The position numbers and the translations under genes were made by a program. Under the pieces are notes generated by a model. That model did no database searches and was not told the DNA's origin. It was given only the letters and a program-made list of their open reading frames with translations. A stretch of DNA of 37,575 nt from an uncultured Anaeromyxobacter sp. GTDB lineage: Bacteria; Myxococcota; Myxococcia; Myxococcales; Anaeromyxobacteraceae. Below, in pieces: positions 20,022 through 27,677 of the stretch (the first letter of the stretch is position 1; every line of letters begins with the position of its first letter). Location of the stretch: the NCBI GenBank assembly GCA_903874275.1, contig CAIQRS010000118.1:1-37575 (forward strand), read 5' to 3'.

Positions 20022-21728
20022 TTGGGGTGTCCCCCGATAGAGTCAGCGCGAATTGGCGCCGATCCCCCCTGGAATTCAATAGGCTTCGGCCCCGGAGCGC
20101 GAACCCTGGCCAGACGCATCGGCACTTCCTGGAAGCAGAGCCCGGTCGACGGCCCCTTCGACGCGGTGGTGATCGGCTCGGGCATCGGGGGGCTCGGCGC
20201 CGCAGCCATGATGGCGCGCCGGCGCGGGATGCGGATCCTCGTCCTCGAGCGCCACTACACGGCCGGCGGCTTCACCCACACCTTCGAGCGGGACGGCTTC
20301 GAGTGGGACGTGGGGGTCCACTACGTCGGCAAGATGGCCGGCCGGCGGGGCGCGCTGCGCCGCCTGTTCGACTACGTCACGGATGGTGAACTGGACTGGG
20401 CGGCCATGCCCGAGGTCTACGACCGGATCGTGGTGGGCGACCGGGAGTTCGACCTGGCGGCGGGCCAGGATCGGTTCGTGGACGGGCTCTCCTCGTCCTT
20501 CCCCGCCGAGAGGAAGGGCATCGAGGGGTACCTGGCGCAGGTGAAGGCCTGCGTGCGCGCCGCCGGCCCCTACTTCGGGACCAGCGCTCTTCCCCCCCGG
20601 GTGGCGGGGCTCTTGGGCGGCCTGATGCGCCGCGGCTTCCTCCGGCACGCCCGGAGGACCACCGGCGAGGTCATCGCCTCCCACGTGAAGGACCCGGTGC
20701 TGCGGGCAGTGCTGGCCGGGCAGTACGGCGATTACGGGCTCCCGCCGGCGCTCTCGAGCTTCGGCAGCCACGCGCTCGTCGCCGAGCACTACCTCCACGG
20801 CGCCGCCTACCCGGTGGGCGGGTCGAGCCGGATCGCCGCCACCATCCTGCCGGTCATCGAGGCGGCGGGCGGGCACGTGGCGGTGGCCGCCGACGTCGAG
20901 CAGGTGGTGGTCGAGGACGGGCGCGCCGCCGGGGTGCGCCTGGCCGGCGGGCGCATCGTCCGCGCCCCGGTGGTGGTGAGCGACGCCGGGTGGGCGGCCA
21001 CGGTGGGCCGGCTCGTGCCCGAGGAATGGAGGTCCCGATTCCCCGCGCTCACCGGCATCGGCCCCTCCTGCGCCCACCTGTCGCTCTACGTGGGGCTGCG
21101 GGGCACGGCCGCCGAGCTCGGGTTCACCGGGACGAACCAGTGGCTCTACCCGGACGCCGACCTCGACGGGAGCTTCCAGCGCTTCGGGCGGGACCCGGGT
21201 GCGCCCTTCCCGATCGTCTACCTCTCCTTCGCCTCGGCCAAGGACCCCACCTTCCTCGACCGCTACCCGGGAAAGGCCACGCTGGAGGCGGTCACCATGG
21301 GGCCCTTCGCGCCCTTCGCCCGCTGGGCGGACACGCGCCCGGGCCACCGCGGCCAGGAGTACGAGGAGCTGAAGGAAGGGCTGCGCGAGCGGCTCCTCGC
21401 GGTGGTGGAGGCGCGCCTCCCCTCGATCCGCGGGCGCGTCGAGGTCGCCGAGCTCTCCACGCCGCTCTCCACCCGCCACTTCGCCGGCCACCCCGGCGGC
21501 GAGGTCTACGGGCTCGAGGCCACGCCCCGCCGCTTCGAGGCCCGCATCCCGGTCCGCGCCCCCCTGCCCGGCCTCTTCCTCACCGGCGCCGACGTGGCCA
21601 CGAGCGGCCTGACCGGCGCGCTCATGGGCGCCGCCCTCTGCGCCTCGGCCGTCCTGAAGGAGAACACCATCGCCGCGATCCTGAAGGAGCCGGATCGGCG
21701 GCGCACCGCTGCAGGAGCGACCCCATGA
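20022..21728 (+). CDS. RetSat/CrtI-family FAD oxidoreductase, about 540-568 aa (start uncertain)
   Basis: FAD-dependent desaturase/saturase-type enzyme. The Rossmann fingerprint is VVIGSGIGGLGAA, followed by LVLERHYTAGGFTHTFERDG and FEWDVGVHYVG, which match bacterial homologues of retinol saturase and carotenoid isomerase/desaturases. The FAD-closing motif LFLTGADVATSGLTGALMG is near the C-terminus. There is no in-frame ATG before the FAD motif: a TTG at 20022 or a CTG near 20106 are the candidates, so the N-terminal boundary is uncertain. Its stop overlaps the ATG of the hemerythrin gene (ATGA). Substrate unknown, perhaps a polyene or lipid. Confidence 0.87.
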   Translation: MGCPPIESARIGADPPWNSIGFGPGARTLARRIGTSWKQSPVDGPFDAVVIGSGIGGLGAAAMMARRRGMRILVLERHYTAGGFTHTFERDGFEWDVGVHYVGKMAGRRGALRRLFDYVTDGELDWAAMPEVYDRIVVGDREFDLAAGQDRFVDGLSSSFPAERKGIEGYLAQVKACVRAAGPYFGTSALPPRVAGLLGGLMRRGFLRHARRTTGEVIASHVKDPVLRAVLAGQYGDYGLPPALSSFGSHALVAEHYLHGAAYPVGGSSRIAATILPVIEAAGGHVAVAADVEQVVVEDGRAAGVRLAGGRIVRAPVVVSDAGWAATVGRLVPEEWRSRFPALTGIGPSCAHLSLYVGLRGTAAELGFTGTNQWLYPDADLDGSFQRFGRDPGAPFPIVYLSFASAKDPTFLDRYPGKATLEAVTMGPFAPFARWADTRPGHRGQEYEELKEGLRERLLAVVEARLPSIRGRVEVAELSTPLSTRHFAGHPGGEVYGLEATPRRFEARIPVRAPLPGLFLTGADVATSGLTGALMGAALCASAVLKENTIAAILKEPDRRRTAAGATP

Positions 21729-22156
21729 CCCATGTCCACGGCCCGGTGCTGGGAATGCCCGAGCTCGACGCCCCCCACGCCGACATGCTGAGCCGCGCCG
21801 ACGACCTCGCCGCCGCGATGCGGTCGCGCCAGGCCCGCAAGGCCATCCTCATCCTCGATGGGCTCGTCGAGGCCACCGCGCTCCACTTCGCCTACGAGGA
21901 GGAGTGGATGGACAAGACGGCCTACCCGGACCGGGTCGTCCACCGGACGGCGCACGACCTCTTCCTCCAGGACCTGCACACCTCGGGCCTGGAGCTCCGG
22001 GCCTCGGGCGTCACCCCGCGGGTCCTCGACTGGGCCTGCGGGAGGCTCCAGACCTGGCTCCGCTTCCACATGGAGAAGAACGACCGGCCGCTGGCCCGCC
22101 ACCTCGAACGGACGGAGCAGAAGCGGCGCGGGGCGCCCACCCTTCACCGGAGCTGA
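21725..22156 (+). CDS. bacteriohemerythrin-like protein, 143 aa
   Basis: Four-helix-bundle di-iron O2-binding protein. Ligand pattern: His18 (APHADM), HFAYEEEWMD with His and Glu, HRTAHDLF with two His, and the C-terminal HMEKND. ATG 21725 overlaps the stop of the RetSat-like gene, so translation is coupled. An O2 or redox link between the two is an attractive inference. A second hemerythrin is at 27273. Confidence 0.9.
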   Translation: MTHVHGPVLGMPELDAPHADMLSRADDLAAAMRSRQARKAILILDGLVEATALHFAYEEEWMDKTAYPDRVVHRTAHDLFLQDLHTSGLELRASGVTPRVLDWACGRLQTWLRFHMEKNDRPLARHLERTEQKRRGAPTLHRS

Positions 22157-22166
22157 CGGGGAACCC

Positions 22167-24875
22167 CTACCTCCGCGCCGGACGCTCCGGCTTCAGGAAC
22201 CGCTCGAAGAAGTCGCCCTTGTTCCAGGCGGGGCGCTCGGCGCCGTCGGCCACGACGAGGGCGACGAGGAACTGCAGCCGCGCGAAGCGCGCCGTGTCCT
22301 CCCAGCTCCAGGCCGTGTCCACGCCCGGGTTCGGCAGCGGAACCAGGTGGAGCGAGGGCACGCCTACCCTCACGAAGCTCCACTGGTCGGAGCGGACGAA
22401 GGCGCCGGCCCGGGGAACGGGGTCGGGGACCAGTTCGACCCCGAGTGAACCGGCGGCGCGCCGGACCGCGGCCGCGAGCGTCGAGTGCTCCGCCCCCCGC
22501 GCCACGGCGGACCCGAGGGGCGAGGTGGTGGGCGGGCCGTCCACGTTCAGGACGGCGACGATCCCCTCCGGCGCCACCACCGGGTGGGTGGCGAGGTACG
22601 AGGACCCGACCAGCCCCTGCTCCCCCCCGGTCACGGCGGCGAAGAGCACCGGGCGGGCCGGCCTTCGCGGCAGCGCGGCGAAGGCCCGCGCCACCTCGAG
22701 GAGCACGGCCACGCCGGCGGCGTTGTCGGCGGCCCCGTCCAGGTGGTCGAGGTGTGCCGTGACCACCACGGTCTCGCGGGCCAGGGCAGGGTCGGAGCCG
22801 CGCAGGATTCCCAGGACGTTCACCGAACGCGTGGTGCGGACCTCGGCGACCGACCGGATGCGGGCCTTGACGGGCCATTCCTCGGCGGCGAGCCGGTTCG
22901 CCTCGGCCTTCTCCAGGATCCCGCGGGTCCCACCCACCACTCCCGCGGCTGCCGCCATCTTCTCGAGCCCCCGCATCGACACCACTGCGCGGGCCGGGAG
23001 CCCGCCGGCGCCGTCGCCGAACCGGGTCCCCTCGGTCCATCCCATTCCCTCGAGCCGGACGCTCCGGGCGAAGGCCTCCCAGGAGAGCGACCTCTCCGCG
23101 TCGGGCGTGTAGACCAGGATCACCCCGGCCGCGCCGCGAGCCGCCAGCCGGCGCAGCTTCCCGGCCCGGTCGGCGTAGGCGGCGCCGGGCGCCGGCGGGA
23201 AGAAGTCGGGCCGGTCGGACGACGGGGCTCCCATGAGCACGACGGCGATCTTCCCGGTGAGGTCGATCCCCTTCATGTCGTCGTAGCCGTACTCGGGCGC
23301 GGCGATGGCGTAGCCCACGAAGGCCATCGCGCCATCCAGCTCCACCTCGGCGTTCTCGCCGTCGGAGAGGGAGACGAAATCCTGTCCTCGCACCAGGCGA
23401 ACCGGAGGGCTGCCCGGCCCGTGGACCACGAGCGAGGAGCCTTCCGGGTCCACGCGCCAGGCCCGGAGCGGTACGGTCTGCTCCCAGCGCCCGTCCCCCG
23501 CCGCCGGCTCGAGGCCGATGGCCTGCATCTGCGTGGCCACCCAGAGCGCGGCGAGCTCGTGCCCCCGGGTGGCCGTCCCCCGCCCCTCGAGCAGGTCGGA
23601 GGAGAGGAAGCGGGTCCCCGCGGAGAGCGCGCCCGGGCTCACCGCAGCGAGCCCCGCCGCGGCTCCCGGCGGAAGCGCGGGTTCGGCGGCCGTGGCCGGA
23701 GTCACGGCGAGGAGGAGCAGGAGGACGGCGGCCCCCACGCCTCTCCCGTGGGCCCGCCGCGCGTGGGAGAGCTGGGCCGCGCGCGCCACCGCCCCCGCGC
23801 CGGCCAGGACCGCACCCACCGTCACCACCCAGCCGACCCAGGGCAACGCCGACGCCGCCCGCAGGAGGAGCAGCGCGGCCAGGGTCCAGAGGAGCCTCGC
23901 GTGCAGCCCCGGAGCGCCCGGGATTCGCCGCGTCCGTGCCCGCAGCCAGGCGCCCAGGAAGATGGCGGTGGAGGAGTATCCGGCCAGCACGAGCAGCACC
24001 CAGGCGGACGCCACGCCCAGCGCGACCGGGATGCCCACGATCGAGAGCGCGAGCAGCACCGCGGCGAGCGGGAGCCCGAAGACCGCGGCGACGCCCATGG
24101 TCTCGGCGAGCCCCGGACTCCGCCACTCGATGGCCGCGGCGTCCCGGGCCAACACCGGCGCCAGCGCCATCCAGGCCCAGGCGAGGAGCAGCATCCCGAT
24201 CTGCATCAGCGCCGCCCGTGCCCCGGCCACGACCCAGGCGCCCAGGGTGGCCGGGAGCGGCGCGGCGACGGTGACCTCGCCCGCGACCTTCGCCCCCTCG
24301 GCGATGCGCGGAGGGTTCGCCCCCAGGACCACGAGGTCGCCGCGCAGGCGCGCCTTCGGGCCGATCACCACCTCGTCGGAGCGAATGCGGACCGTTCCCA
24401 GCACGTCGCCGTCGATCTCCACGTACGACCCGGTGGCGTCGAGGTCCCCGTCCACGTCGCCCAGGTCCACGATCCGCCGCCCGAGCAGCATCGCCTTTCC
24501 CGAGACCCTCGTCCCCCGGGTGAGCGAAAGTTCGCCGCCCGCCGCCAGGAGGTCGCCGCTCACCCAGCCCTGCACGACCACCTGGCCGCCCAGGGCCCGC
24601 ACGTCGTCCCCGACCACGCCGCCCACGTGCACGAGCAGCCCGGCGGCGTTCACGTCGCCGCTCACGGTCCCGTCGAGACCGGCCTGGAGGCCGGCCATGG
24701 TGAGGTCCCCCTCCACGGCACCGTGGACGTCCACCGTGGCGCCAGCCAGGTACTGGTCGCCCGAAAGCGTGCCCTTCTTCACGAGCAGCTGCCGGAACTC
24801 CTGCGCCTGGAGCGCGAGCGGCCCACCGATCGCCAGGGCCGCCGCCAGGAAGCGCACCGCGCGCCCGGCCGTCAT
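22167..24875 (-). CDS. fusion: bactofilin-like beta-solenoid, membrane segments, PA/M28 peptidase-like domain, 902 aa
   Basis: Signal peptide (1-24). Then a beta-solenoid of bactofilin-like turns (about 28-205: GAVEGDLTMAG, GTVSGDVNAAG, GWVSGDLLAAGG). Three to four hydrophobic segments follow (about 215-360). The rest is an M28-type metallopeptidase with a protease-associated (PA) insert. Zn-ligand residues His708 (AHLDH), Asp717 (AADNAAG) and Glu752 are present. The catalytic Glu before Glu752 is Gly (TGGEQGLVGS), and the final ligand His is not seen where YHT is expected. At about 363-405 there is an internal signal-peptide-like stretch with GTG codons at 23789 and 23738 and GGGAG just before the latter, so a separate M28 product is possible. 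ATG 24875 has a strong GGGAGGGG site. Confidence 0.85.
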   Translation of the reverse strand: MTAGRAVRFLAAALAIGGPLALQAQEFRQLLVKKGTLSGDQYLAGATVDVHGAVEGDLTMAGLQAGLDGTVSGDVNAAGLLVHVGGVVGDDVRALGGQVVVQGWVSGDLLAAGGELSLTRGTRVSGKAMLLGRRIVDLGDVDGDLDATGSYVEIDGDVLGTVRIRSDEVVIGPKARLRGDLVVLGANPPRIAEGAKVAGEVTVAAPLPATLGAWVVAGARAALMQIGMLLLAWAWMALAPVLARDAAAIEWRSPGLAETMGVAAVFGLPLAAVLLALSIVGIPVALGVASAWVLLVLAGYSSTAIFLGAWLRARTRRIPGAPGLHARLLWTLAALLLLRAASALPWVGWVVTVGAVLAGAGAVARAAQLSHARRAHGRGVGAAVLLLLLAVTPATAAEPALPPGAAAGLAAVSPGALSAGTRFLSSDLLEGRGTATRGHELAALWVATQMQAIGLEPAAGDGRWEQTVPLRAWRVDPEGSSLVVHGPGSPPVRLVRGQDFVSLSDGENAEVELDGAMAFVGYAIAAPEYGYDDMKGIDLTGKIAVVLMGAPSSDRPDFFPPAPGAAYADRAGKLRRLAARGAAGVILVYTPDAERSLSWEAFARSVRLEGMGWTEGTRFGDGAGGLPARAVVSMRGLEKMAAAAGVVGGTRGILEKAEANRLAAEEWPVKARIRSVAEVRTTRSVNVLGILRGSDPALARETVVVTAHLDHLDGAADNAAGVAVLLEVARAFAALPRRPARPVLFAAVTGGEQGLVGSSYLATHPVVAPEGIVAVLNVDGPPTTSPLGSAVARGAEHSTLAAAVRRAAGSLGVELVPDPVPRAGAFVRSDQWSFVRVGVPSLHLVPLPNPGVDTAWSWEDTARFARLQFLVALVVADGAERPAWNKGDFFERFLKPERPARR

Positions 24876-24976
24876 TTCCCCTCCCGGTGGGCCAGGGTCT
24901 CGAAGGTCGGGCAGCGGATCTGGCTCTTCATGCCCGGTCATCCTATCGTGGCGCCTCCCACTTTCCGGAGGTCCAC

Positions 24977-25543
24977 ATGCGAATCCTCGCCGCAGCGCTC
25001 CTGCTCGCCGCCCTCCCCGCCTCCGCCCTGGAGGTCGCGGGCGTGAAGGTGGCCGATTCCCTCCCCGTGGACGGCAAGACCCTGGTCCTGAACGGCGCCG
25101 GCGTGCGCACGAAGACCATCTTCGCCGTCAAGGTGTACGTGGGCGCGCTCTACGTGACCCAGCGCTCCACCGACGCCGTCGCCATCGTCGCGCTCGACGC
25201 GCCCAAGGTCCTCCGCCTCACGCTCCTGCGCGACGTGGACAAGGAGACCATGCTGAACGCCTTCCGCGACGGCATCGAGAGCAACTCGCCCGGCCAGTCG
25301 GCGGCCCTGGCCTCCAGGCTGAAGCTGGTCGAGACCTCGTTCCCGCCGGAGTTCAAGGACAAGCAGGTCCTCGCCGTCGCCTACGCGCCCGGCCAGGGGA
25401 CGACGATAGGGGTCGAGGGCGGCAAGACCATCACCATCGAGGGCAAGGACTTCGCCGATGCGCTCTTCCGCATCTGGCTCGGGCCCAAGCCCACGGACGG
25501 TGGCCTCGAGGATCTCAAGGCCGCCCTGCTGTCCGGGAAGTGA
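24977..25543 (+). CDS. periplasmic chalcone-isomerase-like protein, 188 aa
   Basis: Signal peptide MRILAAALLLAALPASALEV, then the chalcone-isomerase-like fold: KVADSLPVDGKTLVLNGAG, TIFAVKVYVGALYV, a helix LNAFRDGIESN, and GKDFADALFRIWLG at the end. This bacterial family is generally not an isomerase; it is thought to bind fatty acids or small ligands in the periplasm. ATG 24977 has GGAGG 6 bases upstream. Divergent from the bactofilin/M28 gene, with about 100 bp between them. Confidence 0.87.
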   Translation: MRILAAALLLAALPASALEVAGVKVADSLPVDGKTLVLNGAGVRTKTIFAVKVYVGALYVTQRSTDAVAIVALDAPKVLRLTLLRDVDKETMLNAFRDGIESNSPGQSAALASRLKLVETSFPPEFKDKQVLAVAYAPGQGTTIGVEGGKTITIEGKDFADALFRIWLGPKPTDGGLEDLKAALLSGK

Positions 25544-26080: not shown

Positions 26081-27190
26081 TCAGGAATCCGAGGGGTCGT
26101 CGGGCGCCCTTTCCCCTCGCTCGACCGCGGCGAGCAGCTCGTCGAGCCGGGAGAAGAGGGCCCGGTTGCCGTCCTGGTGGTAGCCATCCAGGTTGCGGCG
26201 CAGGTCGGGCAGCCGCTCGAGGAACTCTTCCAGGACCTCCCCGGTGGCCTCCTCCGCGGCGATCCCGTACCCCTCCTTCTGCAGATAGCGGGCGTTCAGG
26301 ACCTGCTCGAACTGCTTGCGGATCGGAACCGAGAGCAAGGGGCGGCGCAGGTAGACCGACTCGCCGAGCAGGGTGAAGCCTCCGTTCGCCACCACGCCGC
26401 GCGCGGAGCGGAGGTCGTCCACGAACCCCTCGTCGGAGAAGGGCATGAAGCGCAGGTTCCCGTCCCGCTCCTCGGCCTGGATGCCGCGCCGGACGCCGTA
26501 GATCCGGCACTCCAGGCCGGTGGCGCGCAGCCGGTCGAGCAGCGCCGCGTCGCTCGTGGAGGTCTGGTAGACGAGCAGGTGCTCCCCCTCCTCGGGCCGG
26601 GCCGAGAGCACCAGGGGGCGCAGGATGGGAGGTACGAGCGTCGTGCGTGGCTTCACGACCGGCGGATGGAAGAAGGTCGTGACCAGGTAGTGCAGGCAGC
26701 CGGGCAGCTTGGCCTTCACGATGGCGCGGGTGAGCTGGGCCTCGGCCTCGTGCCCCGCGAGCACCTCCGGGGGCAGGTCGCAGCGGGCGACGATCTGCTG
26801 GTTGTCGAGCGAGATGACCGGGATCCCGTTCATGCGGGCGAAGAGGTAGCTCCATGACTCGAAGTCGCTCACCACCACGTCGGGACGGAAGCGCTCGGCA
26901 AGGTCGAAGAAGGCCCGGATGTTCTCGGGCCAGCCCCCCTCGACGAGCGCCCCCTTCAGGTTGGCGAGGAGGGTCCGGAAGTTCCGGACCTGGTTGTCCT
27001 CGTAGACCAGCGAGAGCCCCCAGATGCGGTTCACCCCCAGGCGCTCCGACTCGAGCGATTTCAGGTAGGCGTGGGCCCGGCCCGAGACCACCACCTCGAT
27101 CTCGTGGCGCCTGGAAAGCTCGTCGAGCACCACCCGGGACCGGATGGCATGCCCCATTCCCTCGCCGACCACCCCGTAGAGGATGCGCAC
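26081..27190 (-). CDS. MurG-like glycosyltransferase family protein (MJ1255/VC2487 type), 369 aa
   Basis: GT-B-type glycosyltransferase. The N-terminal fold starts RILYGVVGEGMGHAIRSRVV, the Gly-rich loop of MurG-like enzymes, followed by RPDVVVSDFESWSYLFAR and a C-terminal nucleotide-sugar site GVVANGGFTLLGESVYLRRP with RKQFEQVLNA. This matches the small MJ1255/VC2487-type family in archaea and proteobacteria. Donor and acceptor are unknown. Starts at GTG 27190 with no clear ribosome site; a longer frame exists but runs over the neighbouring hemerythrin start. Divergent from the hemerythrin gene. Confidence 0.88.
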   Translation of the reverse strand: MRILYGVVGEGMGHAIRSRVVLDELSRRHEIEVVVSGRAHAYLKSLESERLGVNRIWGLSLVYEDNQVRNFRTLLANLKGALVEGGWPENIRAFFDLAERFRPDVVVSDFESWSYLFARMNGIPVISLDNQQIVARCDLPPEVLAGHEAEAQLTRAIVKAKLPGCLHYLVTTFFHPPVVKPRTTLVPPILRPLVLSARPEEGEHLLVYQTSTSDAALLDRLRATGLECRIYGVRRGIQAEERDGNLRFMPFSDEGFVDDLRSARGVVANGGFTLLGESVYLRRPLLSVPIRKQFEQVLNARYLQKEGYGIAAEEATGEVLEEFLERLPDLRRNLDGYHQDGNRALFSRLDELLAAVERGERAPDDPSDS

Positions 27191-27272
27191 CCCGGGAGTG
27201 TATCCGTGTCGCGGGCCGGATTCCGCGCTAGATAGGGGGGGACGCGGGCGAGGGCTCCGCGGGGAGGTGCGC

Positions 27273-27677
27273 ATGGGCAGAGGCTCCGAGGCCATCGGGG
27301 TGGGAGAGCAGGAGATGGATGCGGAGCACGACCTGCTCCTGGGCGTGGTCCACGCACTCGAGAAGGCGGTGGATGCGGCGCCGCGGGCCCCCGTGGAGGA
27401 GCTGCTGAAGCAGCTCTCCGAGCTCAGCCGGGTGCACTTCGCCACCGAGGAGATCCTGATGCGGCTCCACGCCTATCCGGAGTTCGCGGCCCACCAGCTC
27501 GAGCACGCCCGGCTGGTGGACCAGATCGAGCAGGTCCGCACCGAGTTCGCCAGCGGGAACGTGCAGCCCACCCGCAACTTCGCCTCGGCGCTCCACCACT
27601 GGTTCACCGAGCACATCCGCAGCCACGACGTGGCGCTCGCCCGTTACGTCCGGGCGTCCCGGCCAGCTTCACCCTGA
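27273..27677 (+). CDS. bacteriohemerythrin-like protein, 134 aa
   Basis: Second hemerythrin in the window. Ligand-bearing motifs are EMDAEHDLL, HFATEEILM, HQLEHARL and HIRSHDVAL, the complete set for a di-iron site. GGGGAGG 6 bases before ATG 27273. A possible -10 (TAGATA, 27229-27234) lies upstream. Soluble cytosolic O2-binding protein; it is followed closely by an alpha/beta hydrolase on the same strand. Confidence 0.9.
   Translation: MGRGSEAIGVGEQEMDAEHDLLLGVVHALEKAVDAAPRAPVEELLKQLSELSRVHFATEEILMRLHAYPEFAAHQLEHARLVDQIEQVRTEFASGNVQPTRNFASALHHWFTEHIRSHDVALARYVRASRPASP

Follow-up and report, generated by a model that had tools for sequence, protein, structure and literature searches.

A single reading frame in the window (the whole stretch of DNA analysed, 37,575 nt, which is also the whole contig) joins a bactofilin-like membrane protein to an M28 peptidase half with an altered active site. 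This raises the question of whether two genes have merged into one, and whether the peptidase half is now kept as a non-catalytic domain or is a gene on its way to loss.

The fused reading frame and its parts

An open frame by itself is weak evidence at 71% GC, where long antisense frames occur too. Because both halves have orthologues in congeners, the 902-aa frame is a real coding sequence. Hydropathy and an AlphaFold2 model agree on its layout: a signal peptide, a beta-helix, about five helices, a signal-like hydrophobic stretch (residues 380-397) and an M28 fold (Table 1). The frame, the Pfam matches and the model thus confirm the first-pass annotation, which had described one open frame with a signal peptide, a bactofilin-like beta-solenoid, membrane segments and an M28 domain. 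On the opposite strand, an 853-aa antisense frame (22485-25046, plus strand) faces the fused gene; at 71% GC such a frame is expected and is no evidence of a gene.

Table 1. Features of the fused locus, in window coordinates
Feature	Positions	Strand	Remarks
Fused reading frame	22167..24875	-	902 aa; ATG 24875, stop at 22167
Leader frame, 19 codons, MKSQIRCPTFETLAHREGK then stop	24872..24931	-	keeps congeners' start codon and first six codons (ATGAAGAGCCAGATCCGC)
First signal peptide, MTAGRAVRFLAAALAIGGPLALQA-Q; GGGAGGGGAA before start	24801..24875	-	
Bactofilin-like beta-helix	24495..24719	-	Pfam match 53-127; model: beta-helix at residues ~30-204
About five predicted membrane helices, residues ~217-366	23778..24227	-	basic loops on expected cytoplasmic side
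Deletion-fusion junction	23733..23786	-	congeners here: stop codon, aldo/keto reductase relic, M28 start
Second signal peptide, VGAAVLLLLLAVTPATA, predicted cleavage before A	23688..23738	-	from GTG 23738; aligns with congeners' separate M28 start
M28-fold half: inserted apical/PA-like part and peptidase core	22170..23687	-	
His708, first Zn ligand, kept	22752..22754	-	
36-nt in-frame deletion site (GIGEPVDGDAIYN loop of congeners)	22737..22742	-	
Asp717, bridging Zn ligand, kept	22725..22727	-	
Gly751 (GGG) replacing catalytic Glu (GAG in congeners)	22623..22625	-	
Glu752, Zn ligand, kept	22620..22622	-	
Asp779, Zn ligand, kept	22539..22541	-	
Lost last-His loop: in-frame deletion of RAHTPRDEWN vs G003	22305..22340	-	30 nt vs G003; 69 nt vs G001

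The N-terminal half matches the Pfam family Bactofilin (PF04519) at 34.7 bits (cut-off 27.9), and the counterpart in a congener falls below that cut-off at 22.8 bits. Ordinary bactofilins are cytoplasmic, and about 3.2% carry N-terminal membrane helices (PMC12448750). The window protein shares their beta-helix but adds a signal peptide and about five C-terminal membrane helices. The short flanking tails, cytoplasmic location and lack of membrane helices of a bactofilin do not describe this protein: the signal peptide and the hydrophobic helices after the beta-helix are present in three of three species. In the bacA-lmdC pair, a bactofilin gene adjoins the gene of an M23 peptidoglycan hydrolase, with separate products and a cytoplasmic bactofilin (PMC10945521). 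Both loci place a bactofilin gene beside a metallopeptidase gene, whereas the window peptidase belongs to an unrelated family (M28).

M28 descent of the C-terminal half is indicated by the Pfam match to Peptidase_M28 (residues 686-850, 114.8 bits, cut-off 21.3). Its model has an M28 fold, with Z scores of about 27 to GCPII and the transferrin receptor (for GCPII, about 420 residues at an rmsd of 7-8), and also resembles bacterial aminopeptidases. Confidence in the model is low at residues 711-714, 750-754 and 850-854, among others. A congener's protein gives a weak match to the Pfam family Nicastrin (E 0.017).

Upstream, the TGA of the leader frame overlaps the present ATG of the fused gene (ATGA), and a strong GGGAGGGGAA of its own precedes the present start. 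The frame may encode a leader peptide with coupled translation; the changed start is one more structural change at the locus. A scan for promoters and terminators found none.

Origin of the fusion

In two species of the same genus (G001 and G003), the bactofilin-like and M28 genes are both present, separate and about 70-75% identical to the window, and the peptidases are intact. A third congener (G002) contributes just the M28 end on a short contig, also with intact motifs. The window, G001 and G003 share their flanking genes: a chalcone-isomerase-like gene to one side of the locus and, to its other side, genes for a hemerythrin, an FAD oxidoreductase and a DUF294 protein. The two genes of G001 are separated by 186 nt; an apparent 1072-aa frame in that genome reads through stops, and the genes are actually separate. 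In the window, the region lies between two hemerythrin-like genes (21725-22156 and 27183-27677, plus strand); the second was not found in the G003 stretch compared, where only weak cross-matches to the first appeared.

What lies between the two genes in the congeners explains how they could be joined. G003 carries a convergent 165-aa frame related to aldo/keto reductases. Longer frames of this type, of about 263-291 aa and upwards, are present elsewhere in the family, and their matches to the two ends of the G003 frame lie about 300 bases apart, so that the G003 frame is internally deleted and lacks a middle piece. The G001 relic is another piece, 69-77% identical to three of the longer genes, after which a frameshift leads into the shared C-terminus. 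The two relics are complementary pieces of the longer intact frames, and the convergent gene is decaying in two different ways in two congeneric species. Both the relic and the stop codon that ends the bactofilin-like gene are missing from the window. The middle gene would have decayed stepwise, until a final in-frame deletion took both its relic and the upstream stop codon. Comparison with the congeners establishes, at the level of sequence, that adjacent co-oriented genes merged by this loss, as the first-pass annotation had suspected. The locus offers a well-resolved recent case of an exported-protein fusion, in which an intervening gene decays through a long remnant and a short remnant to none, and its removal joins the neighbours.

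By this comparison the fusion is recent and lineage-specific, and it is present in one genome only. A conserved bactofilin-M28 architecture was rejected, as a search of the genus, the family and 79 genomes of the order found no second fusion. The same comparison answers the question of whether the fusion and the Glu-to-Gly change are conserved among homologues: relatives have the EE motif and separate genes, and both changes are confined to this lineage. A misassembly or a wrong consensus in a metagenome-type contig could in principle mimic such a pattern, and the genome is fragmented (5.07 Mb in 285 contigs). Such an error would, however, have to produce four independent changes that preserve the frame wherever they are coding; the gene order of the congeners is matched on both sides, and no second copy of the locus was found in the window's genome. 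We therefore regard an artefact as very improbable. The locus is a real, lineage-specific oddity, composed of known parts in a new local arrangement.

Predicted topology and product of the fused gene

The fused frame runs through the junction as GAVARAAQLSHARRAHGRG-VGAAVLLLLLAVTPATAAEP. The join sits just before a Shine-Dalgarno-like GGGAG and a GTG that match the separate M28 start of G001; in the window this context reads GGGAG-AGGC, which places GGGAG four bases before GTG 23738. The second signal-like stretch, the GTG and the GGGAG are present as first described, and a putative signal peptidase I site (A394-T-A, then A) ends the stretch. With the beta-helix outside and five membrane crossings, residues 365-379 (ARAAQLSHARRAHGRG) and the loop after the third crossing would be cytoplasmic, and both are basic, in agreement with the predicted topology. 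The old signal peptide of the peptidase would then form a sixth crossing and place the M28 fold in the periplasm, either tethered or freed by signal peptidase I. Alternatively, the same segment could start a separate protein at GTG 23738. The M28 half would reach the periplasm either way, as before the fusion, which would account for the fusion being tolerated. Survival of the second signal peptide should thus leave the M28 half periplasmic, tethered or cut free, and may be what lets the joined protein keep its topology.

These features bear on the proposal that the peptidase is tethered to a polymer-forming scaffold. The beta-helix protein is exported and polytopic, unlike cytoplasmic bactofilins, and the A-T-A site and the GTG with its ribosome-binding site would permit release or separate synthesis. 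Polymer tethering of the M28 half is therefore unproven. It is plausible, at just short of an even chance, that the fusion is incidental, the M28 half having its own signal peptide and ribosome-binding site and being made separately from GTG 23738, with nothing tethered. In the alignment, GGGAG-N4-GTG and the signal peptide coincide with the separate start of the congeners, as this would predict, but read-through from upstream is expected as well, since no stop lies between the halves. This alternative concerns product synthesis and could hold whichever fate the active site has met.

Active site and fate of the peptidase half

The congeners and the other aligned homologues have the motifs AHxDH, a loop to xDNA, (T/A)(G/A)EE, NxD and a late His. 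None of the 35 aligned homologues (window excluded) has lost the catalytic Glu or the last His. In the window, four of the five metal ligands (His/Asp/Glu/Asp/His) remain, the general-base Glu is Gly751, and the last His has been removed together with the HTPRDEW motif of relatives; the alignment agrees with the first-pass annotation on the four ligands, the Gly before Glu752 and the absent final His. The 36-nt deletion is clean and removes a 12-residue loop between His708 and Asp717. A compensated frameshift was considered for the last-His region, where the +1 frame gives a RAW-like stretch; the region is explained no less well by the clean loss of 30 nt in frame, with G003 as the reference. 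The alignment establishes that the lineage that carries the fusion lost both the general base and the last zinc ligand of its M28 half through one substitution (GAG to GGG) and two in-frame deletions. Because a general base and a metal ligand are both gone, peptidase activity is very unlikely by established M28 chemistry, and the sequence supports well the earlier suggestion that the domain is probably non-catalytic.

The transferrin receptor and nicastrin are non-catalytic M28 homologues of animals, membrane-anchored and located outside the cytoplasm. Like the window protein, they have an M28 fold without a working metal site, and structures of the transferrin receptor match the model; they are eukaryotic and ancient, whereas the window protein represents a single bacterial lineage. 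By analogy, the M28 fold may be kept without catalysis as an exported domain, perhaps one that binds a peptide or a partner protein. We give a probability of about 0.5 to the reading that combines fusion by deletion of the relic, loss of catalysis and retention of the M28 fold as a non-catalytic exported domain. That the fusion was itself selected, with a membrane-fixed, exported bactofilin-like beta-helix displaying the pseudo-peptidase as a binding domain in a bacterial parallel to nicastrin and the transferrin receptor soon after its origin, is unlikely.

The main alternative is early gene loss, in which a recently inactivated peptidase drifts and the fusion is neutral. We consider this possible, though somewhat less likely. 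Two sizeable deletions and the catalytic substitution occurred in one lineage only, whereas the neighbouring genes that were compared have no window-specific deletions. Of 44 columns invariant in outgroups, the window departs from the family residue in 8 and each congener in 1. Five of these 8 positions are active-site residues or columns of the lost loops, and another is an L-to-V exchange, conservative and common to G001; the remaining two are glycines outside the motifs, which count towards loss. Derived residues of the window are also less often present in outgroups (0.44 vs 0.59-0.66), the adjoining intergenic gene decayed too, and the genome has seven further M28-family matches that could take over the function. 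Such a gene could still be open, since at 71% GC stop codons seldom occur and the inactivation would be young. However, every indel has a length divisible by three and the junction, too, keeps the frame, for which chance gives about 1 in 27; the M28 half has no stop or frameshift, and codon-position GC is normal throughout, including this half.

Rates of change show no clear rise. The window has 44 lineage-specific substitutions in the 502 columns of the M28 half, compared with 37 and 59 in the congeners, and its lineage is unremarkable in the four other genes that served as controls (bactofilin, DUF294, chalcone and hemerythrin), the FAD oxidoreductase and glycosyltransferase having been set aside. 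In a three-species codon model, omega for the M28 half was 0.040 on the window branch and 0.039 on the others, with synonymous sites saturated, so that a recent loss of constraint would stay invisible. Changes are over-represented near the motifs (11/67 vs 29/435, p 0.013), an excess that depends on the last-His region, without which p is 0.15. Since no stop, frameshift or accelerated change is seen in this single genome, the balance tips slightly towards a retained non-catalytic domain and away from early gene loss. Were the M28 half retained as a binding domain, the locus would provide a young bacterial pseudo-peptidase with intact sister proteins for comparison. A literature search returned nothing useful on M28 pseudoenzymes or such fusions in bacteria.

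In fold and most motifs, the M28 half resembles metallopeptidases with an inserted apical or PA-like domain, including GCPII, the Aneurinibacillus and Pseudomonas aminopeptidases, and homologues in Myxococcota and Emticicia/Siphonobacter. Unlike these, it has lost the general base and the last His, has two active-site loops deleted and is fused behind a membrane protein. Its orthologues are 70-75% identical within the genus and 30-46% identical elsewhere. Outside Myxococcota, the best matches among the genome contigs searched come from Bacteroidota of the Emticicia/Siphonobacter type, at 30-33% identity.
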